Below are positions 34,199 through 53,397 of a stretch of 64,000 bases of DNA, one piece after another. The stretch's first letter is position 1. Every line of letters starts with the position of its first letter. The stretch lies in NCBI RefSeq assembly GCF_035989285.1, contig NZ_CP108513.1:8928001-8992000 (forward strand). Reading direction: 5' to 3'. The notes under the pieces were generated by a model, which saw nothing but the letters and a program-made list of their open reading frames with translations, made no database searches and had not been told where the DNA came from. The DNA comes from Streptomyces sp. NBC_01235. Its GTDB lineage: Bacteria; Actinomycetota; Actinomycetes; Streptomycetales; Streptomycetaceae. Both the position numbers and the translations under genes were made by a program.

Positions 34199-34221
34199 TT
34201 GCCTGCACCATCACAGGGGGC

Positions 34222-34245
34222 GTGACCCGCCTGGGTGCGGGTCAC
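34222..34245 (+). terminator. Hairpin after the small frame at 33989
   Basis: GTGACCCGC pairs with GCGGGTCAC around a 6-nt loop. No T-run follows. It could end a plus-strand transcript or attenuate one running toward argB. Confidence 0.4.
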
Positions 34246-34302
34246 TCGCAATTCGGGGGGTATTACCTGCGGGCTGAGTTGTCCACCGGGTACCGGTCGA
34301 GC

Positions 34303-34318
34303 GTCCCGTCGACAGGAC
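34303..34318. promoter_or_regulatory. Cluster palindrome GTCCCGTCGACAGGAC
   Basis: One of four 16-bp palindromes in non-coding DNA between the cluster genes (others at 43972, 46825 and 46943). It lies between the argB and LmbU-like gene regions. Which transcript it serves is unclear: argB starts about 590 nt away on the minus strand. Confidence 0.65.
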
Positions 34319-34449
34319 AGTGATTCGGCGGTATGCCCCGGACCGGGAAAGGCAGAATCCTGCCACGCATCTGCCGATGATCCCGGACCCGAAACGGACG
34401 CCGAAGCGGCGGCTGATCAGTTCGGAGCCCGATTGTCGGGGCATATGAA

Positions 34450-34502
34450 CGGGCCATCCGGGACCCGCCCACGCGATGGTGGGGTGCGGGTCCCGGATGG
34501 CC
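34450..34502 (-). terminator. Terminator of the LmbU-like gene
   Basis: A perfect 18-bp stem (34450-34467 with 34485-34502) with a 17-nt loop, 60 nt beyond the stop codon of the LmbU-like gene. Confidence 0.75.
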
Positions 34503-34561
34503 CGTCGGCCGTGGCGTCAGGGTCCGAAAGGGCGCGGTGTCACCGTCGTCGGCAGGGCGGC

Positions 34562-35245
34562 TCAGGCGCTGATGCCGGCCTTCTCCTGCGTCTCCTTGAG
34601 CGCGCGTTCCGCAGCGTTGTCGAGCGTCGCGAGCACCCAATCCTCGAAGTCGATGCCCGACTGTTCCGCCGCCTTGTGCCACCACTGCAGCCGATTGCCG
34701 GGCACCGCGAGCTTTCGAGTGGGCTCGGCCGATTCCCCGTCGGCCGTGCCGTTCTCCCAGGCCATGCGGATGGCACCGCGCAACTGCTTCGTCGTCCACT
34801 TCATCTGTTCGGCGCGGTCGAGCCACCGATCTTGTTCCTCGGTGGGTAATGAGGCGAGTTCGGCGTGGTGCTGGAAGCTCAGTGCGGGGCGCCTGCGGTC
34901 CATCTCGAAGCGCCGTGAGACCCATGCGTAGTTGCGCAGGGTCTGGTATTGCAGCCCTGCCGCCCGGATACCGCGCTGATAGCGGTCGCCGTAGTGGTCC
35001 TTGCCGTAGACGAGCCAGTCGCCCAGCCACCAGGAGGAGGAACTGAGGATTCCGGACAGCTGGCGTCCGGCCCGTTCCCAGTCGTCGAAGGTCAAGCCGC
35101 CGGGTATCTGCAGGCCCACCTTGGTCGTCAGTACCTGGCTGCGTGCCACATCGGCGTTGAGTCTCAGGTGCCTTGCTGCCGTGTCCGGCTTCTTGCGGAA
35201 CTGCACGACCGTAGAGCCGTCGAGGCCGCTGGCCTGATTGGTCAT
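34562..35245 (-). CDS. LmbU-family cluster regulator
   Basis: 227 aa. The central block reads QIPGGLTFDDWERAGRQLSG, SSSWWLGDWLVYGKDHYGDR and AAGLQYQTLRNYAWVSRRFE, the signature of the LmbU family (LmbU of lincomycin, NovE of novobiocin and relatives in peptide clusters). These are DNA-binding activators of their own clusters with a helix-turn-helix in this block. The C-terminal third (MKWTTKQLRGAIRMAWENG) is also typical. GGAG lies 6 nt before the ATG. It is the only pathway-specific regulator seen near the NRPS genes. It is a candidate to bind the 16-bp palindrome, although the known LmbU site is different. Confidence 0.85.
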   Translation of the reverse strand: MTNQASGLDGSTVVQFRKKPDTAARHLRLNADVARSQVLTTKVGLQIPGGLTFDDWERAGRQLSGILSSSSWWLGDWLVYGKDHYGDRYQRGIRAAGLQYQTLRNYAWVSRRFEMDRRRPALSFQHHAELASLPTEEQDRWLDRAEQMKWTTKQLRGAIRMAWENGTADGESAEPTRKLAVPGNRLQWWHKAAEQSGIDFEDWVLATLDNAAERALKETQEKAGISA

Positions 35246-35917
35246 CGTGTCTCCATGTGAACGTACATCGAGCGGACGAGGACATCGCTAGCCGCTCCTG
35301 GAAAAGGGCGAAACACCATGTCTCGGGGAGTCATGTCCATGGGACGGCGCCATGACCGGCCACGTCGCGTGCGGGTGATGCGCCGGTCGTCGGCCCGACT
35401 GCTCCCAGTCGGCCGCACCGGGCCACCCCAGCCCTCAGCCCGAATCGGTTCGCCGCTGTCGGCGGTCGGAACCCGCGCCCTACGGAATGTCCGTCGGCGC
35501 AGCGCTGAGCGCCCCCGGCCGACATTGGAAGAGATACGTTCGACAGCTCGCCCCGTTCGCCTCGACCACTAGTCCCCCTAGTCATGGCAGATGTCGCCGT
35601 CGAAGTGGTGGATAGATCCGGCTGCTTCGAACGGCGTTTCCTAGTAGAACCCTAGTTTGCTTCCTGGTTCAAGGAGGTGGCGCCAATGGGTGCCAATTTT
35701 CGCCATCCAGTGCCGCCATTTTCTGCCAGCCCGGAGCGAATCTGCGGGATGCTTTATTCCGCAACTTTGGAGGGAGTGAAGGGTTACAGCCGACTGCGTG
35801 ACGGGGTTGTCCGGTCATCGGTCGGAAAGGGCCTGCGGGGCGGTAATCAGATAGAAATGCCCTCAATCGGCGCCACGGGCCCGACGCCTGGATATTCCGG
35901 GTAATGGGTGAAACGGT
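35246..35917. other. Gene-free interval upstream of the LmbU-like gene
   Basis: About 670 nt with lower GC than the surroundings. It contains TGGCGCCA at 35678 directly after a strong AAGGAGG, then TGGGTGCCA and two GCCAT-type partial copies up to 35720. A 72-codon frame from the ATG at 35686 has the ribosome site but codon use unlike the neighbours. I treat the interval as regulatory DNA with a possible small RNA or leader. Confidence 0.4.
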
Positions 35918-36445
35918 CTAGGTGGCCCAGCCCGTGTAGTGGTCCGCCTGCCGCTCGGGGCCGCGGGTGCGCTCGTCGTACTCGAGCACCGCGGACACAG
36001 CCCGGACCAGCCAGGCGTTCACCGACAGTCCGTCCCGGCCGGCGGCCTCCTCGATACGGGTCTTGAGGTGTTCCGGAGGCCGGAAGTTGATGCGGGACGT
36101 CGTGCGGTCGTCGCTGTTGGCCGTGCCCGGGGCAGTGGGCGCCGGGGGCGGCAACGGGAGCCGGCGGGGATGCTCGAACCCCGAATCCGCGGCCGAGCCG
36201 GCCGGCGGTGGTGTGACGACGAAATGGGGGTCGAGCCCCCTGAGTCGGATCTCGACCGCGCCGGGAGCGAGTTCCCGGGTGATCTCGTCCGTGGCAGCCG
36301 ACAGCGCTTCGAGCATGACCAGCCGCACGGCGGAGGAGAGCGGAGTGACGAGACGCTCGGCGGCCTCACGGGCCCTGTCGTCGCCCACATCGGCCGCGAC
36401 CAGGAGTTTCTGGCGCAATCCCTCGACATACCGTGTGAGTTCCAC
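35918..36445 (-). CDS. Ribbon-helix-helix (HicB-like) protein, paralogue B
   Basis: 175 aa from the GTG at 36445. It shares the N-terminal domain of this local family (VELTRYVEGLRQKLLVAADV ... SAVRLVMLEALSAATDEITR ... EIRLRGLDPHFVVTPP). It ends with a ribbon-helix-helix of HicB/Arc type (RINFRPPEHLKTRIEEAAGR, DGLSVNAWLVRAVSAVL). It is probably a DNA-binding dimer. It is divergent from paralogue C, and both start regions carry the conserved TGGCGCCA motif at the same distance, which suggests auto- or cross-regulation. No toxin partner is adjacent. Confidence 0.8.
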   Translation of the reverse strand: MELTRYVEGLRQKLLVAADVGDDRAREAAERLVTPLSSAVRLVMLEALSAATDEITRELAPGAVEIRLRGLDPHFVVTPPPAGSAADSGFEHPRRLPLPPPAPTAPGTANSDDRTTSRINFRPPEHLKTRIEEAAGRDGLSVNAWLVRAVSAVLEYDERTRGPERQADHYTGWAT

Positions 36446-36474
36446 GGCGCCATCCTCACACTGCGGTGGCGCCA
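36446..36474 (-). promoter_or_regulatory. Conserved start-region motif, copy B
   Basis: On the minus strand TGGCGCCA (36474-36467) is followed after 13 nt by GATGGCGCC abutting the GTG start. The distance from box to start is 29 nt, identical to copies A and C. Confidence 0.6.
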
Positions 36475-36694
36475 TGCGCAAGCGACGCCTCCCGCCGCGA
36501 CCTGCGTGACGTGGATCGAGCGGCTCCGGGCAGGGGCGTTGCCGGTCCCCGCCGTGCGGGTGCCAGTCGGCTGATCCTTCCTGGTCGTGGAACGCGCCAC
36601 TATGGCGCAACCATCGGAGAAACGTTTTGTTGGAAGGGGTGATGCAGGTGTCCATCTCCCTTGCCATTGCCTTCAGTTGATGGTTGCTTGTGCT

Positions 36695-36723
36695 TGGCGC
36701 CATGGATGTGCCACGATGGCGTT
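36695..36723 (+). promoter_or_regulatory. Conserved start-region motif, copy C
   Basis: TGGCGCCA at 36695-36702, then GATGGCGTT abutting the ATG at 36724. The box-to-start distance is again 29 nt. No ribosome site fits between, so translation may be leaderless and the motif may span the promoter. Confidence 0.6.
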
Positions 36724-37233
36724 ATGAACCTGACGCCCCACGTAGGCAGCCTCCGTCGCGAGTCCCTCGCGGCGGCAGAGGCCGTCGGCATGGAGGTCCT
36801 CGGGCCCGCGGAGCGCCTGGTGGTGCCACTTGAGGCGTCGGTCCGGCTCACGCGGCTCAGCGCGTTGTCGGCCGCCGCCGACGAGATCGCCAGGGACGTC
36901 GTTCCGGGCGCGGTCGACATCCGGCTGCGTGGCCGCGATCCGGGCTTGGCGGTGCTGGTGCCGCCGACCGAAGCGGAGGTCGGACCGCTGTTCGACTCCT
37001 TCGACTCCGGTGCCGAACCACCGGCCGACGACGGCCAGGACGCCCCGGCACGCATCAACTTCCGCCCGCCCGGGCCGCTCAAGCCCCGGATGGAGGAAAC
37101 CGCAGGCGGCGAAGGGCTCTCGGCCAACGCATGGCTCGTCCGGGCCGCCACCAGCACGCTCGACAGCGGCGCCCGCCGCACCGCCCGGCGCGCACCGTCC
37201 GAGCAGCAGAACCACATCGGCTGGGCGCGGTAG
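36724..37233 (+). CDS. Ribbon-helix-helix (HicB-like) protein, paralogue C (precedes DUF4097/ABC genes)
   Basis: 169 aa with the family N-terminal domain (MNLTPHVGSLRRESLAAAEA ... DIRLRGRDPGLAVLVPP). It has a C-terminal ribbon-helix-helix (ARINFRPPGPLKPRMEETAG, SANAWLVRAATSTL). The DUF4097 gene begins 39 nt downstream, followed by an ABC exporter, so it probably regulates that operon. In other Streptomyces the RHH-DUF4097-ABC order is common, from general knowledge. It ends NHIGWAR; paralogue B ends HYTGWAT, a shared tail that supports common descent. Confidence 0.82.
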   Translation: MNLTPHVGSLRRESLAAAEAVGMEVLGPAERLVVPLEASVRLTRLSALSAAADEIARDVVPGAVDIRLRGRDPGLAVLVPPTEAEVGPLFDSFDSGAEPPADDGQDAPARINFRPPGPLKPRMEETAGGEGLSANAWLVRAATSTLDSGARRTARRAPSEQQNHIGWAR

Positions 37234-37272
37234 CCGCCGCGCGTCCCCACCGACTCACCATGGAGGTCCGGC

Positions 37273-38124
37273 ATGGCCACGTTCGACACCCCGGAACCGA
37301 TCTCGGCCCGCATCGCTGTCACCACGGGCGAGGTCCTGATCACCGCGAGCAAGCGTCTCGACACAGTGGTCGAGGTGCGCCCCAGCAACCCCTCCAAAGC
37401 GGCCGACGTCCGGGCCGCCGAGCAGGTCGAGGTCGACTGCAGCCGCGGCAAGCTCGTGGTCAAGGGACCGTCCCTGGGCGGCAGTTCCGGCCCCCCTCCG
37501 CACGGCGGCTCCATCGACGTGACGATCGAAGTGCCGGCGGGCTCGACCGTGCGCGGCAGCGTGGCCTGGGGTGTCCTGCGCAGCCAGGGCGTGCTCGGCG
37601 AGTGCCGCCTTGAGGTCGCCGAGGGCGACGTACGCCTCGACCGGACCGGTCCGGTGCATCTGTCCACGTCCCGCGGCGAGATCACCGTGACCCGCGTGGA
37701 AGGAGACGCCAAGATCGGCAACGGATCGGGAGCGATCCACGTCGATGAGATCGACGGCACCGCGACCATCTCCAACGACAGGGGGGAGGTCCGGATCGGA
37801 GAGATCACCGGCAGTCTGCGTCTGACCGGGACGCACGCCGACTTCCGCGTGGACCGCCCTCACGCCAGCGTCGAGGTCAAGACGATCCACGGCGCCGTCC
37901 GGATCGCCGAGGTCTCCCGCGGCTCGGTCGAGATCACGGCCTCCTCCGCACAGATCGACGTGGGCATCTGCGCGGGCACCGCCGCCAAGCTCGACGTCAA
38001 GACCGTGTCCGGCACCGTACACAACCAACTGCAGGGCGCGGACGGTCCGGCGAACAGCGATCAGATCGTCGAGGTGCGCGCCCGCACCCTCGACGGCGAC
38101 ATCGTCATCCGGCGCGCCCCATGA
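37273..38124 (+). CDS. DUF4097 beta-strand-repeat protein
   Basis: 283 aa of regularly repeated short beta strands, for example RGEITVTRVEGDAKIGNGSG, HVDEIDGTATISNDRGEV and GSVEITASSAQIDVG. These are typical of DUF4097 adhesin-like beta-helix proteins. There is no signal peptide or membrane segment, so a cytoplasmic role is likely despite the adhesin-like label. GGAGG lies 6 nt before the ATG. It sits between the RHH regulator and the ABC exporter genes; members in this setting may sense or scaffold the exporter. The biochemical function is unknown. Confidence 0.85.
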   Translation: MATFDTPEPISARIAVTTGEVLITASKRLDTVVEVRPSNPSKAADVRAAEQVEVDCSRGKLVVKGPSLGGSSGPPPHGGSIDVTIEVPAGSTVRGSVAWGVLRSQGVLGECRLEVAEGDVRLDRTGPVHLSTSRGEITVTRVEGDAKIGNGSGAIHVDEIDGTATISNDRGEVRIGEITGSLRLTGTHADFRVDRPHASVEVKTIHGAVRIAEVSRGSVEITASSAQIDVGICAGTAAKLDVKTVSGTVHNQLQGADGPANSDQIVEVRARTLDGDIVIRRAP

Positions 38125-38314
38125 GCGAGGCGGCCGACGCAGAGTCCTTCCGCACCACGCCGGAACGAGCCACGGCTGCCCACGGGCGGGGCAACCACAC
38201 GGCCCACCGGCGCCCGACCGCGGCCCGGAAACCGTACATCCCCCGGCGGTTTCCGGGCCGCACCTCCAGCCGTACGGCCGGCCGAGGGCCGGGTCCGAAG
38301 ACGAGGGAACATCT

Positions 38315-39247
38315 ATGACTACGCGCGACGAGGTCGTCCTCGATGTCGAGGGCCTGCGCATGCGCTACGGCTCGACGCAGGTCCTGCAGGACGTCAACCT
38401 GCGGGTGCACCACGGCGAAGTGGTGTGCCTGCTCGGGCCGAACGGGGCGGGAAAGACCACGACCCTGGAGATCCTGGAGGGGTTCCGCATGCGGTCGGCC
38501 GGCCGCATCGAGGTGCTCGGCACCGATCCGGCCCACGCCGACGAGCGCTGGCGGGCACGGGTGGGCGTCGTCCTGCAATCCTGGCGCGACCACGGCCGCT
38601 GGCGGGTGCGCGAACTCCTCGGTCACCTCGGCCGGTACTACGCCCCCTACTCCACCGACCGCGTACGACGGCCCTGGGACCCCGACGAACTCGTCGCGGC
38701 CGTCGGACTGACCGCCCACGCCGACAAGAAGGTGCGGATGCTCTCCGGCGGACAGCGCCGCCGCCTGGACGTGGCGGTCGGACTCGTGGGCCGCCCGGAA
38801 CTGCTCTTCCTCGACGAGCCCACCGCGGGCCTCGACCCCGTCGCCCGACGCGAGTTCCACGACCTGGTGGAGAGCCTCGCGGTCCAGCAGGACACCACGA
38901 TCGTGCTCACCACCCACGATCTGTACGAGGCCGAGAAGCTCTCCGACAGGATCATGATTTTGGACGGCGGCCGCATCATCGCGGACGGTACCGCGGACGA
39001 ACTGGCCCACCGCATCGCCGGCGAAGACGAGGTCCGCTGGACCCACGACGGCCGCCACCACCGGCACTCGACCTCCGAATCGACCAAGTTCGTCCACGAG
39101 TTGTTCCAGCGCCACGGCGAGGAGATAGCGGACCTGGAGGTCCGCCGCGCCTCGCTGGAGGACACCTATCTCTCCCTGGTACGGCAGGCGGAGTCCGGGC
39201 AGGACAAGGCCGCGCCGGTGAACGAGTCGCGTGAGGTGCGCCGATGA
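38315..39247 (+). CDS. ABC transporter ATP-binding protein (DrrA/NatA type)
   Basis: 310 aa. Walker A is GPNGAGKTTTLEILEG, the signature LSGGQRRRLDVAVGLVG, Walker B ELLFLDEPTAGLDP and the switch His in VLTTHDLYEAEKLSD. A C-terminal extension (EVRWTHDGRHHRHSTSESTK) is typical of drug and antibiotic exporters of the DrrA type. Its stop overlaps the permease ATG. It follows DUF4097 by 190 nt. It powers the ABC-2 permease encoded next. The substrate is unknown; self-resistance to the NRPS product is plausible by position. Confidence 0.92.
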   Translation: MTTRDEVVLDVEGLRMRYGSTQVLQDVNLRVHHGEVVCLLGPNGAGKTTTLEILEGFRMRSAGRIEVLGTDPAHADERWRARVGVVLQSWRDHGRWRVRELLGHLGRYYAPYSTDRVRRPWDPDELVAAVGLTAHADKKVRMLSGGQRRRLDVAVGLVGRPELLFLDEPTAGLDPVARREFHDLVESLAVQQDTTIVLTTHDLYEAEKLSDRIMILDGGRIIADGTADELAHRIAGEDEVRWTHDGRHHRHSTSESTKFVHELFQRHGEEIADLEVRRASLEDTYLSLVRQAESGQDKAAPVNESREVRR

Positions 39248-40092
39248 ACCCGACCACGACAGCGCTGCGCGCGGGCTGGTCCCGCGGACTGATCGAGCTG
39301 CGGCAGTCGCTGACCAACGCGGGCGACCTCCTCAATCACTTCCTGTGGCCCGTGCTGATGCTGATCGTCACCTACTTCGTGCGGGACGTGTCCTTCGGGG
39401 ACACCGGGTTCGAGCTGGGCACGCTCGTCCTGCCGAGCATCCTCGGCATGAACTCCGCGATGGCGATGGTCACGATGAGCCAATTGCTCACCGCAGAGCG
39501 GGAGGACGGCACCCTGCTGCGGGCCAAGGCGACGCCGAACGGCATGGTCGGCTATTTCACCGGCAAGATCGTCTTCGTGTCGTTCGGCCTGATCGTCGAC
39601 CTCGCCATCTTCCTGATCCCCGGTCTGCTCATCGTCCCCGGACTCTCCGTGGGCAGCGCGGACGCCTGGCTGACCCTGGTCTGGGTGCTGGCGCTGGGGC
39701 TGGTCGCGACTCTGCCGATCGGCGCCGTACTCGGATCCGTCTTCACCAGCACCCGCAGCCAGGGGATCATCATGCTGCCGATGATGGCGATGATCGCCAC
39801 GTCCGGCATCTTCTACCCCGTCACGTCGATGCCTGACTGGGCGCAGTGGTTCGCCCAGGTCTTCCCCGTCTACTGGCTCGGGCTCGGCATGCGGTCCGCC
39901 CTGCTGCCGGACAGCGCGGTCACCGTCGAGATCGGCGACTCCTGGCGCCATCTGGAGACCATCGGTGTCCTCGGCGCCTGGGCCGTCCTCGGCCTGGTAC
40001 TCGCCCCGATCGTGCTGCGCCGCATGGCCCGCCGAGAGTCGGGCTCCACGGTCGCCGAGCGCCGCGAGAAGGCCCTGCAGCGCGTCGGCTGA
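39244..40092 (+). CDS. ABC-2 type permease
   Basis: 282 aa with six hydrophobic segments. Sections MNSAMAMVTMSQLLTAERED and GTLLRAKATPNGMVGYFTGK are typical of the DrrB/ABC-2 family. The MPDWAQWFAQVFPVYWLGLG segment before the last helices is conserved in bacterial antibiotic exporters. It is translationally coupled to the ATPase gene through a 4-nt overlap. A very strong hairpin follows 20 nt after the stop. Confidence 0.9.
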   Translation: MNPTTTALRAGWSRGLIELRQSLTNAGDLLNHFLWPVLMLIVTYFVRDVSFGDTGFELGTLVLPSILGMNSAMAMVTMSQLLTAEREDGTLLRAKATPNGMVGYFTGKIVFVSFGLIVDLAIFLIPGLLIVPGLSVGSADAWLTLVWVLALGLVATLPIGAVLGSVFTSTRSQGIIMLPMMAMIATSGIFYPVTSMPDWAQWFAQVFPVYWLGLGMRSALLPDSAVTVEIGDSWRHLETIGVLGAWAVLGLVLAPIVLRRMARRESGSTVAERREKALQRVG

Positions 40093-40112
40093 GCGCGCGC
40101 GAAGGTGACTCC

Positions 40113-40180
40113 CGCACCCCCCAACCCCACTCAGGCCTGTCCCGGCACCGGGACAGGCCTGAGTGGGGTTGGGGGGTGCG
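40113..40180. terminator. Perfect 33-bp inverted repeat, bidirectional terminator
   Basis: Arms 40113-40145 and 40148-40180 are perfectly complementary over 33 bp with a 2-nt gap, so the tip cannot pair fully. It lies between the exporter operon and the convergent methyltransferase operon and should stop transcription from both sides. The perfect match over this length is unusual. Confidence 0.8.
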
Positions 40181-40315
40181 CGTCAGTGATCCGGCCGACG
40201 ATGGCGGCCCCACGCATCAGGAATGCCCGGCCTGTTCCGGCCGGACAGCTCGTTCGTGCCGGTGACGGCCTGGGCCTGAGCCGGGCGGTCGCTCACCTCG
40301 GTCGTCGAGCCGGCA

Positions 40316-40347
40316 GCCGGTGAGAGCGCCCCGGCGCTCTCACCGGC
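40316..40347 (-). terminator. Hairpin overlapping the methyltransferase stop codon
   Basis: A perfect 15-bp stem (40316-40330 with 40333-40347), which includes the stop codon at 40340-40342. It ends the P450/methyltransferase transcript. Confidence 0.7.
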
Positions 40348-41428
40348 TCCCGGGATTCTCGCTCGGCGTTCCCTCCAGGACGTGATAGTCCGGCATCCCC
40401 TCGCCGACCGGAACGGCGACCGTGGCGGTGAGGGTGAAGCCGCTCGCGGCGAGCAGCTGCGCGTACTCGTCGCGGGTGCGCTCGCGACCGCCCGCGAACA
40501 CGAGGTTGTTGAGGTCGGTGAGACCGTACGCGCTCGACTCGGCCGGGGTGAGCACCGCAGGCATCAGCGTCTCCACCAGAAGCAGCCGGGCGGCCGGCGC
40601 CATCGCGGCACGGCACCTGCGCAGCAGGGCGGACGCATCCTCGTCGTCCAGGTCACGCACGATGTTGTTGAGCAGATAGGCGTCCGCGCCCAAGGGCACG
40701 GATTCGCCGAGAACGCCCGCGACCGTCTCGCAACGCTCGGCGACCCCCGCCGCCTTCAGCGTGGCCACCGTCGTGTCGAGCGCCTCCGGAAGGTCCTGCA
40801 GCACGGCCCGAGCCCCGGGCACGGCGGTCAGCAGCGCTGCGATCAGGGTGCCGTCGTCCCCGCCGAGGTCGGCGATCGTGCCGAACACGGAGAAGTCGTA
40901 CACCGCGGCGGCGTGGGCGGCGAACTCACCGACGCCCGCGGCCTTTCCGGCCCGCAGCGCCGCTGCGGGGCCGGGGCGCCGCAGCAGCGATTCGTGCGCG
41001 GTCAGCCCGTCGACGGGGTCACGGAAGACCGAGCCGGTGCGCACGACCTGCGGCAGCGCTCCCCAGGCCCGCCACAGCTCGGGTGCCACGGACAGCCTGA
41101 TCTCGTCGGCCACCGACCCCTCGGTGCTCGATGCCAACAACCGACCGGAGTCGGTGAGTTCGAAGCGCTCCATGTCGAGCTGGGTCACCACACCAAGGCC
41201 CGCGAGCGCGCGCAGCAGCCTGCGCAGCGCGGCGGGATCGGTGCCCGTGCGTCCGGCCAGCTCGCCGTAGGCGTGTGGGCCGTCGGCCAGTTCCTCGGCC
41301 ACGCCCAGGTCCACGGCCGCGTACAGGATCTGCGTCGGCACGAAGCCGAGGATCATCTGCCGGAGCTCGTTCGCCGGGTCGGTCGCCGCCACGGCGGTCG
41401 TCTCCTCCTCGCTCGGTCCGCCGGTCAT
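40340..41428 (-). CDS. SAM-dependent O-methyltransferase (Methyltransf_2 family)
   Basis: 362 aa. An N-terminal winged-helix dimerisation domain (LGVAEELADGPHAYGELAGR, LRRLLRALAGLGVVTQ) is followed by the SAM domain, starting IADLGGDDGTLIAALLTAVPG with the acidic loop VLQDLPEAL. Family members O-methylate phenols or hydroxyls on polyketides and modified amino acids. The usual catalytic His region reads YLLNNIVRDLDDEDA, where many members have H(I/V)LHDW; the His is replaced by Asn, so the catalytic base may differ. The ATG overlaps the upstream P450 stop (ATGA), so they are coupled. It probably acts on a hydroxyl made by one of the P450s. Confidence 0.85.
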   Translation of the reverse strand: MTGGPSEEETTAVAATDPANELRQMILGFVPTQILYAAVDLGVAEELADGPHAYGELAGRTGTDPAALRRLLRALAGLGVVTQLDMERFELTDSGRLLASSTEGSVADEIRLSVAPELWRAWGALPQVVRTGSVFRDPVDGLTAHESLLRRPGPAAALRAGKAAGVGEFAAHAAAVYDFSVFGTIADLGGDDGTLIAALLTAVPGARAVLQDLPEALDTTVATLKAAGVAERCETVAGVLGESVPLGADAYLLNNIVRDLDDEDASALLRRCRAAMAPAARLLLVETLMPAVLTPAESSAYGLTDLNNLVFAGGRERTRDEYAQLLAASGFTLTATVAVPVGEGMPDYHVLEGTPSENPGSR

Positions 41429-42618
41429 GAGGTACGCAGGGGGAGGGAGTTGATGCCGATCATGTCCGGCGTGGGGAAGAACGTCGGCGGGTTGTCGGGG
41501 TCCGTTCGCAGCACCGGGAAGCGGTCCATCAGGGCGTTCAGTGCCACTCGGGCCTCGAGCCGGGCCAGGCCGGCACCGAGGCAGAAGTGGATGCCACGGC
41601 CGAACCCGAAGTGCGGATTGGGATCGCGTGCCGGGTCGTAGACATCCGGCTCGGGGAACCGGGAGGGGTCGCGGTTGGCGGCGGCCAGCCACATCATGAC
41701 GATCTGGTCCTTCGGGATACGCGTCCCCGCGATGTCGACGTCGGTGGTGGTGCCCCGGGCGAGGGCGGCCGAGGGAGAGAGCGTGCGCAGGGCCTCCTCG
41801 ATCGCGCCCGGTACCAGGGCCCGGTTCGCGCGCACCCGGGCGAACTGCTCGGGGTTGGCGTCCAGGCACAGCACCGTGTTGCCGAGCGTCATCGTGGTGG
41901 TGATGTGTCCGGTGACCAGCAGAATGTTGGCCACGTTGACGATCTCGGTGTCCGTCAGCCGTTCGCCGTCGACCTCGGCCTGGGCCAGGTGGCTGAGCAG
42001 GTCCTCGCGTGGCCGGGCCCGGCGCTCGGCGAGGTGCCCGGCCATGTAGTCCCGCAGGGGTCGCAGGCGCTCGGTGGCGTCCTGGACGCTCTGCACACCC
42101 TGCTCGCTGTCGTCGAGGAACGAGAAGCCGCTGAAGCTCTCGATCACATCGTCGGCCCACTTGCGGAACAACTCGCGATCGTCCGCGGGAACACCGAGCA
42201 GCTCGGCGATGACGATGACCGGCAGCGGATAGGCGAGGGCGGAGGCGAGCTCGATCTCGGATTCGCCCTCGAGCTGGTCGAGCAGCCCGTGGGTGATGTC
42301 GACGACCTGCGACTCCATCGCCGCGACCAGCCGCGGCGTGAAGGCGCCGCTGACGAGGCTGCGAAACTTGCGATGCAGAGGCGGATCCATCTGGGACATG
42401 TCCCCCTCGATGAGGGATTGGTCGACGCCGACGGGCATCAGCCGCGTCAGGTCGGAGGAGAACGTTGTGTGGTCACCGAGAATCTCGAGGCACTCGGCGT
42501 GACCGTAGACGTTCCACACGCCTTGCGCCTCGTCGAACTGGACGGGGGAGTCGGGACGTTCTCCACGCAACCAGGGGTGTTCCGGATGGATGTCCCACTG
42601 GTGGACGACCGTTGTCAT
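41425..42618 (-). CDS. Cytochrome P450 B
   Basis: 397 aa. The heme-ligand loop FGFGRGIHFCLGAGLAR, K-helix EEALR and I-helix NILLVTGHITTTM are visible. In the I-helix the usual A/G-G-x-x-T reads TGHITT. It resembles P450 A (42653) in layout and start (WDIHPEHPWLRGERPD versus WDLHPEHFWLRGEIPE). Both belong to the CYP107-like type used in peptide and macrolide tailoring. AAGGAG lies before the ATG at 42618; a longer start at 42687 is not supported. It lies between a paralogous P450 and a methyltransferase in one operon. It needs external ferredoxin; none is encoded nearby. Confidence 0.92.
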   Translation of the reverse strand: MTTVVHQWDIHPEHPWLRGERPDSPVQFDEAQGVWNVYGHAECLEILGDHTTFSSDLTRLMPVGVDQSLIEGDMSQMDPPLHRKFRSLVSGAFTPRLVAAMESQVVDITHGLLDQLEGESEIELASALAYPLPVIVIAELLGVPADDRELFRKWADDVIESFSGFSFLDDSEQGVQSVQDATERLRPLRDYMAGHLAERRARPREDLLSHLAQAEVDGERLTDTEIVNVANILLVTGHITTTMTLGNTVLCLDANPEQFARVRANRALVPGAIEEALRTLSPSAALARGTTTDVDIAGTRIPKDQIVMMWLAAANRDPSRFPEPDVYDPARDPNPHFGFGRGIHFCLGAGLARLEARVALNALMDRFPVLRTDPDNPPTFFPTPDMIGINSLPLRTS

Positions 42619-42652
42619 GGTGTTTCTCCTTGGTGCCGTGACAGGGGCGGGT

Positions 42653-43846
42653 TCAACCGGCGAGGACCGGTAGGGTCTCGACGCCATCGACGTCGATCAC
42701 CTGCAGGAACGTGGGCGGGGCGGCCGGGTCGGGGCGCAGGTCGGGGAACCGGTCCAGGAGGACCTCCACGGCGGCCTTGGCCTCCATCCGGGCCAGCTGC
42801 CGGCCGATGCAGAAGTGGACGCCGCGGCCCAGTCCGAGGTGTGCGTTGGGCGTGCGGTCGGCGACGAAGGTGTTCGGGTCGTGGAACTGGCGCTCGTCGC
42901 GGTTGGCGGAGCCGGTCCACACGATGAGCAACTGGTCCTTGGGGATCGTTGTGCCGCCTATTTCCACGTCGGTGTTGGTGGCCCGCCCCACTCCGCAGAT
43001 GGGACTCAGGAAGCGAAGGGATTCCTCGATCGCGGAAGGCAGGAGGGACCTGTCCGCTCGGACCTTGGCGCCCTCTTCCGGAAAGGCATCCAGACACAGC
43101 ATGGTGTTGCCGATCAGCATGGCGGTGGTGAGGTGCCCATTGACCATCATCCGGTTGCAGATGTTGGATATCTGGCTGTCCGTCAGGCGCTCGCCGTCGA
43201 TTTCGGCATCGAGGAGCTCGCTGACGAGGTCGCCGCGCGGCTTCTTTCTGCGCTCGACCGCCATGTCCTTCCAGTAGTCACGCATCTCCCAGAGCAGTTC
43301 GAGTTCCTTCTCCAGCTGCTCCTTTCCCTCCAACTGCTCCTCCGGGGACTTCAGTTCCTCACCTCCTTGGAGCATCTTGTCCATCCACCCGCGCAGCACG
43401 ACGCGGTCGCTCGGCGGGACGCCCATCAGATCCGCGATCACGATGAGCGGCAGCGGTGCGGCGAAGTCCTTCATGAGATCGAAGGACGGCTTGCCGTCCA
43501 GTTGGTCCAGGAGCTCGTGGATGATGCCGTGCACCTGTGACTCGAGGCGTCCCAGCAGGGCGGGCTTGAAGGCGTGGTCGACCAGGCCGCGCAGCTTGCG
43601 GTGCTTCGGCGGGTCGGTGTGGCCGAAGTCGCCGTCGACGAGGGCCTCGTCCACCTGGATGGGCTCCAGCCGCATCATGTCGCTGGAGAAGACCTTCGTG
43701 TTACTGAGGGCCTCGGCGCACTCGGGGTAGCCGTAGATGTTCCACATCTTCAGCTCTTCGTTATAGGAAACGAGATTCTCGGGGATTTCCCCGCGAAGCC
43801 AGAAATGCTCCGGATGCAAATCCCAATGGTCGACAGGTGAAGCCAC
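42653..43846 (-). CDS. Cytochrome P450 A
   Basis: 397 aa. Heme loop LGLGRGVHFCIGRQLARMEA, ExxR in EESLRFLSP, and I-helix NRMMVNGHLTTAM, where the conserved Gly-x-x-Thr reads NGHLTT. The same substitution of His after the Gly occurs in P450 B, so the pair likely descend from one duplication and may act on related or carrier-bound substrates. An insertion of charged residues (EELKSPEEQLEGKEQLEKEL) before the I-helix region is specific to this copy. It is the first gene after the palindrome at 43972. Confidence 0.92.
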   Translation of the reverse strand: MASPVDHWDLHPEHFWLRGEIPENLVSYNEELKMWNIYGYPECAEALSNTKVFSSDMMRLEPIQVDEALVDGDFGHTDPPKHRKLRGLVDHAFKPALLGRLESQVHGIIHELLDQLDGKPSFDLMKDFAAPLPLIVIADLMGVPPSDRVVLRGWMDKMLQGGEELKSPEEQLEGKEQLEKELELLWEMRDYWKDMAVERRKKPRGDLVSELLDAEIDGERLTDSQISNICNRMMVNGHLTTAMLIGNTMLCLDAFPEEGAKVRADRSLLPSAIEESLRFLSPICGVGRATNTDVEIGGTTIPKDQLLIVWTGSANRDERQFHDPNTFVADRTPNAHLGLGRGVHFCIGRQLARMEAKAAVEVLLDRFPDLRPDPAAPPTFLQVIDVDGVETLPVLAG

Positions 43847-43971
43847 AGGGCGGGTCCTTCCGTGAGGTATGGATACGTCCGGGCTCGCATTCGCCGGGAA
43901 GGTCCGGCGGGCTCGCCCAGTCTCAATCGGGCCTTCCCGCTACGCTCTTGGGCCGGAAGGCAGTCGGTATC

Positions 43972-43987
43972 GTCTTGTCGACGGGAC
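43972..43987. promoter_or_regulatory. Cluster palindrome GTCTTGTCGACGGGAC
   Basis: Lies in the 154-nt gap between the type II thioesterase and the first P450, 126 nt upstream of the P450 start. It suggests the P450-P450-methyltransferase genes have their own regulated promoter. Confidence 0.7.
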
Positions 43988-44000
43988 GGGGAAAGATGAG

Positions 44001-44720
44001 TCAGTGACCACGGGCGGACTCTGCCGCGATCACGTTCAGTACCTCCTGGCCGAGATCGACCAGGTACATGTGACCACCTGGGAACTCCACGAAGCTGAAT
44101 TCACTGGTGGTCGCGTCCCGCCAACCTTGAGCCTCTTCCGCGGTGACCAACGTGTCGGAGCTGCCCCGAATCGAGCAGATCGGCACCGACACCGGTTCAT
44201 CGGTGCTCGGGATATAGTTCTCGTGCATCTCGCAGTCGGCCCGCAGCATGGGGAGAATCAGTTCACGCAGATCTGGGTGGTCGAGTGCCTCGTGCCGGAA
44301 TCCCGCGAACTCCTCGACCCGGAGGAGGAATTCCTCCTCCGGAAGTCCTGTCGCCCGCCTCTCCCGCTGGGTCCACGGCCCCGGCGAGCCACTGACGACC
44401 AGCCGCTCGACGTGCACATCGCGCGTGCTCAGCAGATGCGCCAGCTCGTACGCGAGCACCGCGCCCAGGCTGTGCCCGAACAGCACGGTCCGCGCCCCTT
44501 CGCCGAGGTCCGCGACAATGTCGTCGATCGAGTTCTTGGCCGCTTCGACGACGTTCCGGTACGGCGTCTCAAGGATCCGCCGCTCCCTGCCGGGCAGTTC
44601 GACCGGGACCACGCGCCACCGGTCGCCGGCCAGTTCCCTCCACGGATGGAAGAACGAAGGGCCCGCCCCTGCGAACGGCACGCACAGCAGCGCGGTCTCG
44701 CCCCGGTCTTCCACAGACAT
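44001..44720 (-). CDS. Type II thioesterase, copy 1
   Basis: 239 aa, alpha/beta hydrolase of the GrsT/RifR type. The nucleophile is in FGHSLGAVLAYELA, the acidic residue likely in SIRGSSDTLV and the His in FPGGHMYLVD. The start MSVEDRGETALLCVPFAGAG is typical. GGGAAG lies upstream of the ATG at 44720. Such enzymes free stalled or wrong acyl groups from carrier domains. Next to a free A and PCP it may also release the finished amino acid from the carrier protein. Confidence 0.9.
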   Translation of the reverse strand: MSVEDRGETALLCVPFAGAGPSFFHPWRELAGDRWRVVPVELPGRERRILETPYRNVVEAAKNSIDDIVADLGEGARTVLFGHSLGAVLAYELAHLLSTRDVHVERLVVSGSPGPWTQRERRATGLPEEEFLLRVEEFAGFRHEALDHPDLRELILPMLRADCEMHENYIPSTDEPVSVPICSIRGSSDTLVTAEEAQGWRDATTSEFSFVEFPGGHMYLVDLGQEVLNVIAAESARGH

Positions 44721-44786
44721 ACCGGCTTCCCTCACCCCGACCAACCCCAATCATCAATTCGATAGTTCGTTGAAGCACGCCTGGAA

Positions 44787-45038
44787 CTACTGGCTCACCG
44801 TGCCCAGGGATTCGATGTACGCAGAAATCGACGCCACCGTCGGATTGAGGAACATCTGATCGATCGGGACCTCGACGCCCAGCTCGTCGATGAAGGCACC
44901 CTGAATCCTGGCCATGATCACGGACTGGCCGCCCAGAGCGAAGAAGTCGTCGTCGGCCAAGATGTCATCGCGCTGGAGTTCTCGGCACCAGATGGTGCGC
45001 ACGCTGTCGGCAATCATCACAGTCCTCTCGGTTGTCAT
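44787..45038 (-). CDS. Free peptidyl carrier protein
   Basis: An 83-aa single carrier domain with the phosphopantetheine serine in [17 protein letters not shown]. The helix II/III part (GAFIDELGVEVPIDQMFLN) is typical. It starts 14 nt after the free adenylation protein's stop and is followed by a type II thioesterase. The trio is the standard unit for holding one amino acid as a thioester while tailoring enzymes act on it. Confidence 0.9.
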   Translation of the reverse strand: MTTERTVMIADSVRTIWCRELQRDDILADDDFFALGGQSVIMARIQGAFIDELGVEVPIDQMFLNPTVASISAYIESLGTVSQ

Positions 45039-45051
45039 CAAGGTCCGCCGA

Positions 45052-46638
45052 CTATGCCGTCGCGCCGCTGCCGGTGTATACATTCCGGCACGCGTCGACC
45101 AGCGCAGCGCGGTCCACTTTTCCGTGCGGGCTCAACGGAATCTGCGGGATGTTGATGAATTTGGTCGGAACCATGTTCCGCGGCAGCGTCCCGAGGAGGC
45201 GGGTGCGCACGTCGTTCTCGGTGAGATCGTCCCTCTCCGGGACGATGAACGCGATCAGCTCGGCCTCACCGGAATCGTCGTACGTGATCACCACGGCGGC
45301 CTCCCGGACCCCGGCCAGCCTGCCGAGCGCGCGTTCCACGTCGGCGGGATCGATCCGCATGCCCCGCACCTTCACCTGCGCGTCCATCCTGCCCACCACG
45401 ACGAGGTCCCCGCCCGGCGTCACATAGCCGCGGTCGCCCGTGCGGTACAACCTGCGCGACTCACCGTCGACCACGACCGTGGTGAACCGCTCGGATTCGG
45501 GACCGGTGCCGTTGAGGTAGCCCGCGCCGACGCTGGTCCCGGAGATGCAGATCTCGCCGGACTCCCCGGCCCCGACTCCACGCATCCGCTCGTCGAGGAT
45601 GTGGAGGTCGGTGTTGTGGGCGGGCTTGCCGACCGGTGGGTTGTCGTGTTCGCCCCTCCAGTACTCGGCGAGGTCGTACGACGACGCCACATCCGTGCAC
45701 TCGGCGACGCCGTACTGGTGCAGGAGGGTGCACGTATTGGCCTCGCGCCGCGCCCAGTCCGCGATCCGCTGGACCTTCAGCGGTTCCCCGCCGAAGAGCA
45801 CGTAGTCGAGCCGGGCGAGCGTGTCACCTCCACGTGCGGTCTCCCAGTCCACCAGCAGGTACAGCGTGCTGGAGGCGCAGTGCACCGTGCGTACATCGTG
45901 CTCGGCCAGCATGCGGAAGGCCATCGCGGCGTCGAAGTTCCGGCTCGCCATCAGGTTCTGGGTGGCTCCGCAGAACAACGGCATCATCAGGCTGCGCTGG
46001 GAGAGATCGAACCCGAACGCGCTGACGACCAGGTTGTTCGACCCGCGGTGCAGGCCGTACTCGAGCTTCAGCCAGTTCAACAGGTTGAACCAGCCCTCGT
46101 GCCGCACCGCGGTCACCTTCGGCGTGCCGGTCGACCCGGACGTGAAGACCGCGTAGCACACGTCGTCCCCGGTGACCAGGACGTCGGGGTCGGTCGCCGG
46201 CAGACCCGCAAGGTCGTCGGAGGACTGCTCCAGGTCGATGACCTCGACGGCCGCCGACTCGACCAGCCCGGCCGTCGCAGGGGAGGCCACGATCAGGGCG
46301 AGATCGGGCATCTGGCCCAGCAGCAACTGGAGTCTCGCCGCGGGGTAGGACGGGTCGAGCGGTACGTAGGCCGCGCCTGCCTTCAATGTGCCCAGGATGG
46401 CGACGAGCAGGTCGATCGAGTAGTCGAGGCAGACGCCGAGTCTCGCACCCCGGCCGTGCCCACGCGCGGCGAGGAAGTGCGCGAACCGGTTGGCCTTCGC
46501 GTTGAGTTCTGCGTACGTCACCCGTTGCCCGGCGCAGAAGACGGCAACGGCGTCGGGAGTGGCTTCCGCGTGGGCCTCGAACTGCTTGTGGACGACGGGC
46601 GCCGAGGGCAGGGCGACCCGCTTTCCCTGAAGGATCAT
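45052..46638 (-). CDS. Free adenylation protein (amino-acid activating)
   Basis: 528 aa, a single A domain. Core motifs: A2 LGTLKAGAAYVPLDPSYP, A3 [18 protein letters not shown]5 LHQYGVAECTD (atypical for YGPTE), A7/A8 YRTGDRGYVTPG and GRMDAQVKVRGMRIDPADVE, A10 PHGKVDRAAL. The pocket residues I read are D, L, R, C, L, G, Q, D, V and K. I know no match for that code, so the substrate is unassigned. It should load the carrier encoded next. It could instead, or also, serve the defective second module of the large NRPS at 47204. It starts from the same 565-nt intergenic region as the divergent NRPS gene. Confidence 0.9.
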   Translation of the reverse strand: MILQGKRVALPSAPVVHKQFEAHAEATPDAVAVFCAGQRVTYAELNAKANRFAHFLAARGHGRGARLGVCLDYSIDLLVAILGTLKAGAAYVPLDPSYPAARLQLLLGQMPDLALIVASPATAGLVESAAVEVIDLEQSSDDLAGLPATDPDVLVTGDDVCYAVFTSGSTGTPKVTAVRHEGWFNLLNWLKLEYGLHRGSNNLVVSAFGFDLSQRSLMMPLFCGATQNLMASRNFDAAMAFRMLAEHDVRTVHCASSTLYLLVDWETARGGDTLARLDYVLFGGEPLKVQRIADWARREANTCTLLHQYGVAECTDVASSYDLAEYWRGEHDNPPVGKPAHNTDLHILDERMRGVGAGESGEICISGTSVGAGYLNGTGPESERFTTVVVDGESRRLYRTGDRGYVTPGGDLVVVGRMDAQVKVRGMRIDPADVERALGRLAGVREAAVVITYDDSGEAELIAFIVPERDDLTENDVRTRLLGTLPRNMVPTKFINIPQIPLSPHGKVDRAALVDACRNVYTGSGATA

Positions 46639-46824
46639 CAACTGACTCCGATATGAGAGGTGTCCGGTGAGGCGTAACCAATCAAGGACCGCTCCGACAG
46701 GTTCTGCGGGAAGGCCATCACCGTCTTCCGCATGGGAATTGTCTGGGCCGGGCGAATCCATGACCGTCACGGAGTGATACGGAAAGGGAAATCGGGGGCT
46801 CGGCGCCGCTCGCCGTTCGGTGTT

Positions 46825-46840
46825 GTCCTGTCGACAGGAC
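46825..46840. promoter_or_regulatory. Cluster palindrome GTCCTGTCGACAGGAC (perfect)
   Basis: A perfect 16-bp palindrome, 187 nt upstream of the free adenylation gene. It is the most symmetric of the four copies and gives the consensus. Confidence 0.75.
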
Positions 46841-46942
46841 ACTCGGCATCCGCAGCCGGCCCGGAATGCTGTCGCCACCGTAGGATCCCGACCGCCGGCG
46901 CCACAAGGGCGGTGTCCACCTCGCCACAGGGGCCTGCGCGTG

Positions 46943-46958
46943 GTCCTGTCGACGGGAC
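46943..46958. promoter_or_regulatory. Cluster palindrome GTCCTGTCGACGGGAC
   Basis: One mismatch from the perfect copy, 118 bp away from it (start to start), and 246 nt before the NRPS start at 47204. Confidence 0.72.
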
Positions 46959-47203
46959 AGAACTCCCCTTCGGCGCACCGGAATCGGTCCGGGACCGTAT
47001 TCGCTTGACCATGCAGCACCCAGACGCCAGGATATTGATCGTCCGCAGATTCGGATATTCGTTCCGAATTACCGATCGGAGATAATCGGTCGGCTGTAAT
47101 GGACCTCAAGAGCGATGGATTATTCCGTTCTCGGATCGATGCCGTGGAATGCATCGCCGGATGATTCGCTTTTCCCTCCCGATCCGCCTGTTCGCGTGGA
47201 GTG

Positions 47204-50200
47204 ATGGACGTGCCTCACCCGATGGAGCAAGACCGGTCGCCGATGGCGGCCGACGGTGCTGTCCCGCATCCGGCCGACGTCACGATCACCGCGTTGTTCG
47301 AACGGCAGTCGAGGGCGACCCCCGAGGCGATCGCCGTAGTGTGCGACGACCAGACGCTGACCTACGGTCAACTCGCCGAGTGGTCCGACCGCTTCGCGGC
47401 CGGTCTCATCGATCGAGGAGTCGGCCCCGAGGCCGCCGTGGCAGTCGCGCTGCCGCGCTCGGCCGAGCTCGTCGCGGTACTGCTCGGCGTGCTCAAGGCC
47501 GGCGCCGCCTACCTTCCGATGGACCCGGACTACCCGGCCGAACGCATGGAGTTCATGCTCCGCGACGTACGGCCGACGCTGCGGATCGGTACCGATCGCG
47601 CGCCCGGCGAGCCCTATGGCCCCTGCCCTGTCGTGACACCCGCCGAGATCACGGTCGGCGGCGGCATGCCGGGCACCCACCGGGCCCCCCGTCCCGAGCA
47701 ACTCGCCTACGTCATCTACACGTCCGGTTCGACCGGGACCCCCAAGGGCATCGGCATCACCCACCGGGACGTCGTGGACCTCGCGTCGGACAGCCGGTTC
47801 GCAGGCGGGGCCCACACGTGCGTGCTGCTGCACTCGCCGCTCGCCTTCGACGCCTCGGTCTACGAGTTGTGGGTCCCGCTGCTGACCGGTGGCCGGGTCG
47901 TGGTCGACACCTCGGAGGACCTCACCCCCGGTGTCCTCGCCGACCTCGTCTCCCGCAACGGCGTGACGGCGGTCTGGCTGACGAGCGCGCTGTTCAACGT
48001 CCTGGTCGAGGACGACCCCCACTGCCTGGCCGGGCTGCGGGAGGTCTGGGCCGGCGGCGACCGGGTGCTGGCACCCGTCGTCCGGCGGGCCATGCAGGCG
48101 TGCCCGGACACCCGGTTCGTCAACGGCTACGGGCCGACCGAGACCACGGTGTTCGCAACCAGCCACCGGGTGGAGCGCGCACAGGATCTCGGTGCGGAGG
48201 TACCGATCGGACGTGCCCTGGACACCATGCGGGCCCATGTCCTCGACGAGCGGCTGTGCCCCGTACGCCCGGGCACACCCGGCGAGCTGTACGTCGCCGG
48301 CGGCGGACTGGCCCGCGGCTACCTGAACCGGTCGGCACAGACGGCCGCGCGGTTCGTCGCCTGCCCGTTCGGAACCCCCGGGGAACGGATGTACCGCACC
48401 GGTGACCTGGTGACCGCCACCGAGGACGGCGAGCTGACCTACCAGGGCCGGGCCGATCACCAGGTGAAGGTGCGCGGCTTCCGCATCGAACCCGGCGAAG
48501 TCGAGGCCGCGCTGCTCTCGCACCCCGAGGTGGCGCACGCCGCGGTGGTCGCTCGCCAGGACGACGGCCCCGGCGGCAAACAGCTGGTCGGGTATGTCGT
48601 ACCGGCGGCCGGCGACCGTGCGACGAGCGAGCGGCACAGCGCCGAGGGCGTGCCGACCTCCGACGTACTCGCCCGGGAACTGCGGACCTTCCTCGGCACA
48701 CGGCTGCCCGAGTACATGGTGCCCGCCGCCTTCGTCCTGCTCGACGGATTGCCGCTGACCCCCAACGGCAAACTGGACCGGGCGGCGCTCCCCGCGCCGG
48801 AGTTCGTCTCGACCGCATACCGCTCGCCCGCCACGGACGGCGAGCGGATCCTCGCGGCGGTGTTCTCCGAGGTGCTGGGACGGGAACGGGTCGGCGTCGA
48901 CGACGACTTCTTCTCCCTCGGCGGCGACAGCATCCAGTCGATCCAGGTGGTGTCCCGCAGCAGGGCGCGCGGCCTGTCCGTCAGCTCGCAGGAGATCTTC
49001 CGACGCCGGACCGTCGCGGCCATCGCCGCGGCCGCCGCCGAGGCTCCGACGGACGAACCGCCCGTCCTCGCCGAACCCGAAGGCGGCGGCGTGGGACGGA
49101 TGCCCCTGATGCCGGTCGCCCACTGGCTCCGTGAGCGTGGGCCGGGCTTCGACCGGCTGCTGCAGGCGGTGGTACTGGAACTCCCGCCGGGTATCGACCG
49201 CACCGGCCTGTCGGCCGTCCTCACGGCGGTCGTCGACCGTCACGACCTGCTGCGTGCCCGGCTGCTGCCCGACGGACTGCTCGTCGGGGAGCCCGGCTCC
49301 GTGGACGTCGACCCTCTCGTCCGGCGAGTCGCCCACGAAGGGCCATGGACCGGAGAGTCCTGGCACAGGCTGCTGACCGGCGAACTCGACGCCGCCGCAG
49401 GGAGACTGGACCCGTCCACGGGTGTGGTCGCGCAGTGCGTGTGGTTCGATCCGCCGTCCGGCTCCGGACGACTGCTGCTCGCCCTGCACCATCTCGTGGT
49501 CGACGGCGTCTCCTGGCGGATCCTGATGCCCGATCTCGCGGCCGCGTGGCACCAGGTCCGCGACGGGCGCACCCCCGAACTGCCGCCCGTCGGGACCTCC
49601 GTACGGTGCTGGGCCCACGCCCTGGCCGACGAGGCGTCGAGCGACGCCCGGCGCGCCGAGCTCGAGACGTGGCGGTCGATCGTCGACGGCCCCGACCCGG
49701 TCCTGGGGACCCGGCGCCTCGACCCGGTCGCCGACGTGCGGAGCACGGTCGAGAAGGTCCGCGTCCAGCTGCCGCAATCGGTCACCCAGGCGCTGCTGAC
49801 CGCCGTACCGGACGCCTACCGGGGCGGAGTCAACGACGGCCTGCTGGCCGCTCTCGCCGTGGCCGTCGCCCGCTGGCGCCGCGACAGGGGCGTCACCGAA
49901 CCCTCGACACTGCTCCGCCTGGAGGGCCACGGCCGGGAGGAGGAGGCCATCTTGGGGGCCGACCTGTCCCGCACCGTCGGCTGGTTCACCAGCGTCTTCC
50001 CGGTGCGGCTCGACACCGCGGGCATCGACCTCGACGAGGCGTTCGCGGCCGGCCCAGCCGCGGGAGCCCTGCTCAAGGCGGTGAAGGAACAGCTCCTGGC
50101 CGTACCGGACCGGGGCCTGGGCTACGGCCTGCTGCGCCACCTCGACCCCCGAGGCGCCGAGGCACTGGGTACCTCGTCCCTCGGGCAGATAGGGTTCAAC

Positions 50201-53200: not shown

Positions 53201-53323
53201 CTCGGCACGGAGATCGCCATCGGGGCCATGTTCCGGCACCGGACCATCGCCGAGCTCGTCGCCCGCTGGGACGAGAACACCACCAGGAGCGGCCCTCGGC
53301 TGCGCAGACGGAGCAAGGAGTGA
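47204..53323 (+). CDS. NRPS: A-PCP-E-C-A*-PCP
   Basis: 2039 aa. A1 about 25-525 (A3 [17 protein letters not shown]5 NGYGPTET; A10 NGKLDRAAL), PCP1 with Ser near 576 ([11 protein letters not shown]), epimerisation 630-1070 (HHLVVDG near 762; GHGREEE), condensation 1125-1540 (HHVLFDGWS near 1260), A* 1566-1942, PCP2 with Ser near 1985 ([11 protein letters not shown]). The A1 pocket reads D, A, Y, W, W, G, G, V, F, K, close to valine-type codes as I recall them, so a D-branched residue is likely. A* lacks the A3 to A6 cores and the A8 hinge and cannot activate anything. No starter C domain precedes A1, so this protein probably begins the chain. A GTG at 47201 is an alternative start. Confidence 0.93.
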
Positions 53324-53397
53324 CCCCGTATGGCCCGTACGTCCCGACCCGATCCGGAACCGCGCAGGACGACCGCAGCAGGGCGAGAGGTGTGCGC

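Follow-up and report, generated by a model that had tools for sequence, protein, structure and literature searches.

An 18-bp palindrome as the predicted operator of LmbU-family regulators in a piperazate gene cluster of Streptomyces sp. NBC_01235

Which protein reads the palindromes that recur in a nonribosomal peptide synthetase (NRPS) gene cluster of Streptomyces sp. NBC_01235, and which genes does it control? The question arises from a 64,000-nt stretch of the chromosome (assembly GCF_035989285.1, contig NZ_CP108513.1, positions 8,928,001-8,992,000; hereafter the window), for which a preliminary description reported four palindromes at 34303, 43972, 46825 and 46943, all in non-coding DNA. 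They were interpreted as marks of a cluster regulon controlled by a dimeric regulator, and the binder was left open. We propose that they are operators of the cluster's own LmbU-family regulators, LmbU1 and LmbU2, a dimer of which would activate transcription of the genes named below; judging from sequence comparisons, we put the probability of this reading at about 0.88.

We joined the 56 kb beyond the right end to the window, carried the window numbering on rightwards and called genes by codon usage (Table 1; coordinates prefixed C1: are those of the chromosome). The four palindromes are real sites. All of them are intergenic by the gene caller, as had been described, and upstream of genes, and the three variants differ from the 16-bp motif GTCCTGTCGACAGGAC at one or two positions rather than at one to three. 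At up to three mismatches 0.85 sites are expected by chance in the window, and four or more arose in 1 of 100 shuffles. With at most one mismatch, GTCCTGTCGACAGGAC is found in only four places in the 11.09-Mb genome, all in the cluster: three in the window and the fourth at C1:9013980, 22 kb past its right-hand edge, upstream of a piperazate synthase-like gene with a second LmbU gene next to it. These four places share one 52-kb interval with both LmbU genes of the genome. On the other hand, the genome-wide search with three mismatches proposed earlier found the motif to be frequent (54 places, with 70 for the reversed pattern used as control); the signal therefore lies in near-perfect sites, and the motif search must run tighter. 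The 18-bp form of the motif (see below) occurred in 7 places, 5 of them in the cluster, against 1 and 3 for reversed controls; it missed 46943 because the outermost base of that site is G. After the six sites in Table 1, the next-best match to a position weight matrix (PWM) in the 120 kb scored 5.3 and was coding. Thus, the idea of a cluster regulon under a dimeric regulator is supported, but the regulon is not confined to the window, as it includes the sites at C1:9009505 and C1:9013980. Two further candidates were discarded, namely C1:9009377 as a partner site (3 mismatches, 128 bp from C1:9009505; PWM score 2.1) and autoregulation of LmbU1 via 35330 (PWM score -2.2).

We then asked how closely the motif follows LmbU genes across actinobacteria. 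In 78 LmbU loci of named genomes (431 pattern matches, 382 relatives, best 80 kept), the window motif was present with at most one mismatch in 43 loci and with at most two in 66, while 200 permuted palindromes gave means of 0.1 and 1.3 loci and maxima of 15 and 48, respectively. Among 199 genomes of the same genus, 46 of which have an LmbU match (40 strong, 6 weak), 26 contained a place with at most one mismatch, comprising 19 of the 40 strong-LmbU genomes and 7 of the 159 others (Fisher p=2.3e-10). Counting the six weak matches as LmbU gave 19/46 against 7/153 (p=5.7e-9), and leaving out the own genome gave 18/39 against 7/159 (p=8.5e-10). The exact motif was detected in eight of these genomes, all of which have LmbU, and four of the seven places in LmbU-less genomes are coding. 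A degenerate pattern was not strict enough for whole genomes, with an average of 3.97 matches where LmbU is present (n=39) and 1.39 where it is absent (n=153), and the main test therefore rests on at most one mismatch. In 48 stretches taken around the strong LmbU matches of same-genus genomes (L099-L146), GTCCBGYCGRCVGGAC was matched by 57 sites in 38 stretches (permuted mean 0.2, maximum 11), or 53 in 37 without four sites inside LmbU genes. Operator-like 16-mers lie inside LmbU coding sequence at L121:9927, L122:9929, L125:9867 and L137:9962; they are probably coincidental, their bases encoding, by inspection, a conserved SRRRD stretch. Altogether, an intergenic site scoring at least 8 with the 18-bp PWM was found in 115 of 126 LmbU stretches, in comparison with a mean of 0.9 and a maximum of 4 stretches for 15 column permutations. 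The association between motif and LmbU thus favours LmbU as the binder, which can hardly be called open.

The preliminary description had set the conserved length at 16 bp and held that relatives of LmbU bind other sites. The site of the lincomycin LmbU has been published as CGCCGGCG (PMC6510168, PMC10763038), whereas the sites in the window have TGTCGACA-type cores. Nevertheless, many more distant LmbU loci carry GTCCCGCCGGCGGGAC (GTCC-CGCCGGCG-GGAC), the centre of which is the published site, and both core forms, that of the window sites included, fit the single consensus YGYCGRCR and have identical arms in LmbU loci; the relatives would thus read the same palindrome. To reduce circularity, we fixed only YGYCGRCR in the 126 LmbU stretches and found the GTCC and GGAC arms both present at 135 of 730 intergenic copies and at 5 of 3853 coding copies. 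Of the copies of the published extended lmbA motif TCGCCGGCGA, 4 of the 5 in intergenic DNA have GTC/GAC arms, as against none of the 38 in coding DNA. Immediately flanking the 16 bp, 129 non-redundant intergenic sites have T (73%) or C (26%) on one side, matched by A or G on the other, and almost nothing is conserved beyond 18 bp. The predicted operator is therefore an 18-bp palindrome, with the published 8-mer as its core. The 8-mer itself (CGCCGGCG), which is still quoted as the LmbU motif in a review of November 2025 (PMC12945683), has 654 distinct copies in the 126 stretches, of which 24 bear both arms, and is thus too frequent for targets to be predicted from it.

The positions of the sites relative to genes were surveyed in 139 stretches, some of them redundant and 12 selected on other grounds than LmbU. 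Intergenic DNA, which makes up 18% of the 126 LmbU stretches, contained 178 of the 185 sites; four of the seven coding sites are those inside LmbU genes. The 125 non-redundant sites with genes on both sides fell into divergent (82), tandem (42) and convergent (1) gaps, which account for 45, 41 and 13% of the intergenic length. Genes within 450 bp formed 28 target groups (Pfam of 20 representatives, two with no match), led by piperazate synthase-like (41 loci), ornithine hydroxylase-like (34), LmbU itself (14) and NRPS-type genes (12), and including thioesterase (7), MbtH (5), argB (3), P450 (3), argJ (1) and others. We scanned 155 non-redundant downstream regions for sigma-70-like promoters. 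At a score of at least 8, there were 22 candidates (7.3 in shuffles), 18 of which had the -10 element at 41-68 bp from the site centre (1.05 in shuffles, maximum 3), a range picked after seeing the data; the corresponding fractions were 24/41 at 7.5 (2.05, maximum 7) and 26/50 at 7 (3.8, maximum 8). Among the best candidates, the operator is thus mostly located just upstream of the -35 element, the place of an activator.

We envisage that an LmbU dimer would read the 18-bp palindrome, in which YGTCYNGYC is followed without a spacer by GRCNRGACR, upstream of the -35 element and, once bound, would activate transcription starting just downstream. The regulon in the window would comprise argB, the P450/O-methyltransferase operon, the operon of adenylation (A), peptidyl carrier protein (PCP) and thioesterase (TE) domains, and the divergent NRPS operon. 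Beyond the right end, it would take in the divergent P450 promoters and the piperazate synthase-like gene. In this way, the supply of ornithine, the formation of piperazate, assembly and tailoring may be switched on together, and the published CGCCGGCG site would be the core of the same operator. The lincomycin LmbU, the one family member with published dimer formation and DNA binding, is reported to bind DNA with this core and to be a homodimer and an activator (PMC6510168, PMC12945683). As to the protein, the helix-turn-helix stretch YQTLRNYAWVSRRF is invariant or nearly so among 25 LmbU relatives, and its RR would correspond, from the spacing, to R101-R102 of the lincomycin LmbU, R101 being the arginine needed for binding. 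By eye on the tree, we found no recognition code between core form and LmbU residues, the helix being nearly invariant, and the models from two AlphaFold predictions were poor.

Several observations weigh against the proposal. No site scoring at least 8 was found in 11 of the 126 LmbU stretches (L027, L053, L073, L076, L086, L097, L103, L118, L119, L132 and L146), and one 20-kb stretch has two operators, one exact (L154:9931 and L154:13716), and no LmbU gene, the LmbU match of that genome being on another contig. Not all counts are independent, since most loci used to test the PWM had also served to train it, the named and unnamed sets share some contigs, and one gene pair (ktzT/ktzI) makes up many of the targets in related clusters. 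At a low cut-off, promoter candidates show no excess over shuffles (118 versus 111), and the best ones in the window are modest and not all suitably positioned, with -10 elements at 64, 77 and 123 bp from the site centre and scores of 5.2-7.5. Furthermore, no more than 31 bp separate the right-hand site from the piperazate synthase-like start codon, and 34303 lies 591 bp from argB. The equivalent site in S. lanatus is 162 bp upstream of argB, the distance in the window (33711-34302) being about 430 bp longer.

The alternative that survives best, which we consider improbable yet worth keeping in mind, is that LmbU, though bound to these operators, acts in the cluster mainly as a repressor or with mixed effects. 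Of three reporter targets outside its own cluster, the lincomycin LmbU represses two and activates the third (PMC10763038), and a protein bound 31 bp from the piperazate synthase-like start codon could block the polymerase. Against repression stand the usual placement upstream of -35, the reported activation of lmbA and lmbW by LmbU (PMC12945683) and the acnO mutant, which makes no actinomycin D (PMC6521150). The activation reading agrees with the last two and also, provided that gene order can be relied on, with the activator ArtB.

LmbU was not, as had been described, the only cluster regulator seen: a second LmbU is encoded at C1:9012615-9013244, and HicB-like genes are present on both flanks. 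Ribbon-helix-helix proteins bind palindromes, and the HicB-like proteins belong to that type; moreover, three target genes of other loci are of this type by inspection. We nonetheless regard them as very unlikely binders, as their relatives occur in only 26 of the 126 LmbU stretches while the site occurs in 115. It is just as improbable that the site is bound by the product of a regulatory gene lying elsewhere in the genome, with LmbU merely travelling with such clusters. The evidence for LmbU is an association, and the motif with at most one mismatch does occur in 7 LmbU-less genomes, but these genomes show no motif excess, and a palindrome whose core is reportedly bound by LmbU recurs beside LmbU genes with 28 target-gene families in several genera. 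That the palindromes are terminator hairpins or chance products can practically be dismissed: the RNA of the perfect palindrome can fold and GTCCCGCCGGCGGGAC-type sequences arise by chance in high-GC DNA, but convergent gaps, with 13% of the intergenic length, hold a single site, and permuted palindromes are far rarer than the real motif.

Table 1. Predicted operators and genes of the cluster, in window numbering (mismatches counted against GTCCTGTCGACAGGAC, 16 bp; ABC, ATP-binding cassette; KR, ketoreductase; ORF, open reading frame).
Feature	Position	Strand	Remarks
Predicted LmbU operator, argB side (CGTCCCGTCGACAGGACA)	34302..34319	.	16-bp match 34303-34318, 1 mismatch; PWM 28.5; 591 bp upstream of argB (start 33711, -), 243 bp past LmbU1 stop
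Predicted LmbU operator, P450 operon (CGTCTTGTCGACGGGACG)	43971..43988	.	16-bp match 43972-43987, 2 mismatches; PWM 17.9, weakest of four; 125 bp upstream of first P450 (start 43846, -)
Predicted LmbU operator, perfect palindrome (TGTCCTGTCGACAGGACA)	46824..46841	.	46825-46840, 0 mismatches; PWM 31.6; divergent gap between free-standing A-domain gene (start 46638, -) and first NRPS (start 47204, +)
Predicted LmbU operator, same divergent gap (GGTCCTGTCGACGGGACA)	46942..46959	.	46943-46958, 1 mismatch; PWM 23.7
Predicted LmbU operator right of window	C1:9009505 = 81505		Divergent P450 and PCP-P450 starts; 2 mismatches; PWM 29.2
Predicted LmbU operator right of window	C1:9013980-9013995 = 85980		Piperazate synthase-like gene; at most 1 mismatch; PWM 26.7
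argB, acetylglutamate kinase, proposed target (ornithine supply)	32806..33711	-	TIGR00761 247 bits, cut-off 151
LmbU1, LmbU family transcriptional regulator, proposed binder	34562..35245	-	NCBIfam NF038070 233.4 bits, cut-off 125
HicB-like, DUF4097, ABC transporter genes	35918-40092		Left-hand block
O-methyltransferase and two P450s, proposed target operon	40340..43846	-	Pfam p450 twice, Methyltransf_2; ends by gene caller
Thioesterase, PCP, free-standing A domain, proposed target operon	44001..46638	-	Pfam; ends by gene caller
NRPS, thioesterase, A-KR-PCP NRPS genes, proposed target operon	47204..57977	+	Pfam; continues right of window
4971-aa ORF	58062-72977		NRPS: condensation, AMP-binding, PCP, thioesterase domains (last 4325 residues searched)
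Ornithine N-hydroxylase-like gene	72990-74315		Lys_Orn_oxgnase
MbtH gene	74312-74536
P450 gene	74551-75753
Second HicB-DUF4097-ABC block	75802-79241 (C1:9003802-9007241)
Ferredoxin and P450	79659-81180	-
PCP, P450, TE	81673-83971	+
LmbU2	84615-85244 (C1:9012615-9013244)	+	NF038070 226.7 bits, cut-off 125
Piperazate synthase-like gene	85304-85948	-	FMN_bind_2
IS110 transposase	86755-87912	-

The product of the piperazate synthase-like gene contains M-FKLSQ-E, which fits the KLSQ, M and E residues diagnostic of piperazate synthases (PMC10888640). As an ornithine N-hydroxylase-like gene is present as well, we regard the cluster as a piperazate NRPS cluster, and its KR-containing module suggests a depsipeptide product. 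The HicB-like/DUF4097/ABC-transporter block flanks the NRPS genes on both sides, the two copies sharing 74% identity over 1.4 kb and 83% over 1.9 kb of DNA; the right-hand HicB-like copy is just above the Pfam HicB cut-off and the left-hand copy has no match. The gap that separates the ABC transporter from the O-methyltransferase genes contains a terminator-like perfect inverted repeat of 33 bp with a 2-nt loop (40113-40180), and another such repeat, of 20 bp, lies just past the LmbU1 stop (34449-34505) and is distinct from the 34303 operator. LmbU1 has a TTA codon (codon 133) and would thus need the rare bldA tRNA, whereas LmbU2 has none and would not.

Beyond this genome, we lean towards a general picture, with rather more confidence than doubt, in which the LmbU regulators of antibiotic clusters share one conserved 18-bp operator (YGTCYNGYCGRCNRGACR), read by a DNA-binding domain that may be of the ParB/Noc type known from chromosome partition. 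A large branch would serve as the switch of piperazate pathways and tie dedicated genes of the arginine pathway (argB, argJ or argCJBD) to ktzT/ktzI and NRPS genes, and the regulons of LmbU clusters, silent ones included, would be readable from DNA. The full-length operator would make LmbU regulons predictable from sequence, would explain the presence of arginine-pathway genes in piperazate clusters and would indicate that silent clusters could be addressed through their local lmbU gene. The S. parvulus locus L067 has the order argC-argJ-argB-argD-lmbU, a ktzT-like gene, an operator and a ktzI-like gene (the last two gene names from inspection and target grouping). Two operators 24 bp apart (start to start) were observed in L038, L044, L067, L077, L098, L109, L138 and L143, which have a second, more distant LmbU type.

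The literature searched, which lacked the primary 2018 LmbU paper, describes only the middle 8-10 bp, and we found in it neither the full 18-bp operator nor the TGTCGACA-core form nor a piperazate/arginine regulon. The closest known system is the lincomycin LmbU of S. lincolnensis, which belongs to the same protein family (NF038070) and has a palindromic site at promoters of its own cluster, with a core equal to the operator centre. In contrast to that site, published as 8 bp (10 bp extended), the operator presented here is 18 bp long, has the TGTCGACA core and serves a piperazate NRPS cluster with two LmbU genes. The himastatin (HmtC/HmtD) and lunaemycin (Lun17/Lun18) clusters resemble the right flank of the present cluster in having a piperazate synthase gene beside an LmbU gene, and the lunaemycin cluster also lists dedicated L-ornithine synthesis genes; the accessible portions of that report describe no operator (PMC9866976). 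The actinomycin regulator AcnO, called LmbU-like (PMC6521150), and the aurantimycin regulator ArtB, called a novel regulator class (PMC5031334), are positive regulators by gene inactivation, and the accessible portions of both papers likewise describe no operator. The artA-artB-artC order is matched in L067, where an LmbU gene adjoins MbtH and A-domain genes with two operators upstream, and from this gene order we infer that ArtB is LmbU-like. Altogether, the regulator family, its activator role and the core of its site were already known, and the full operator and its predicted regulon are new.

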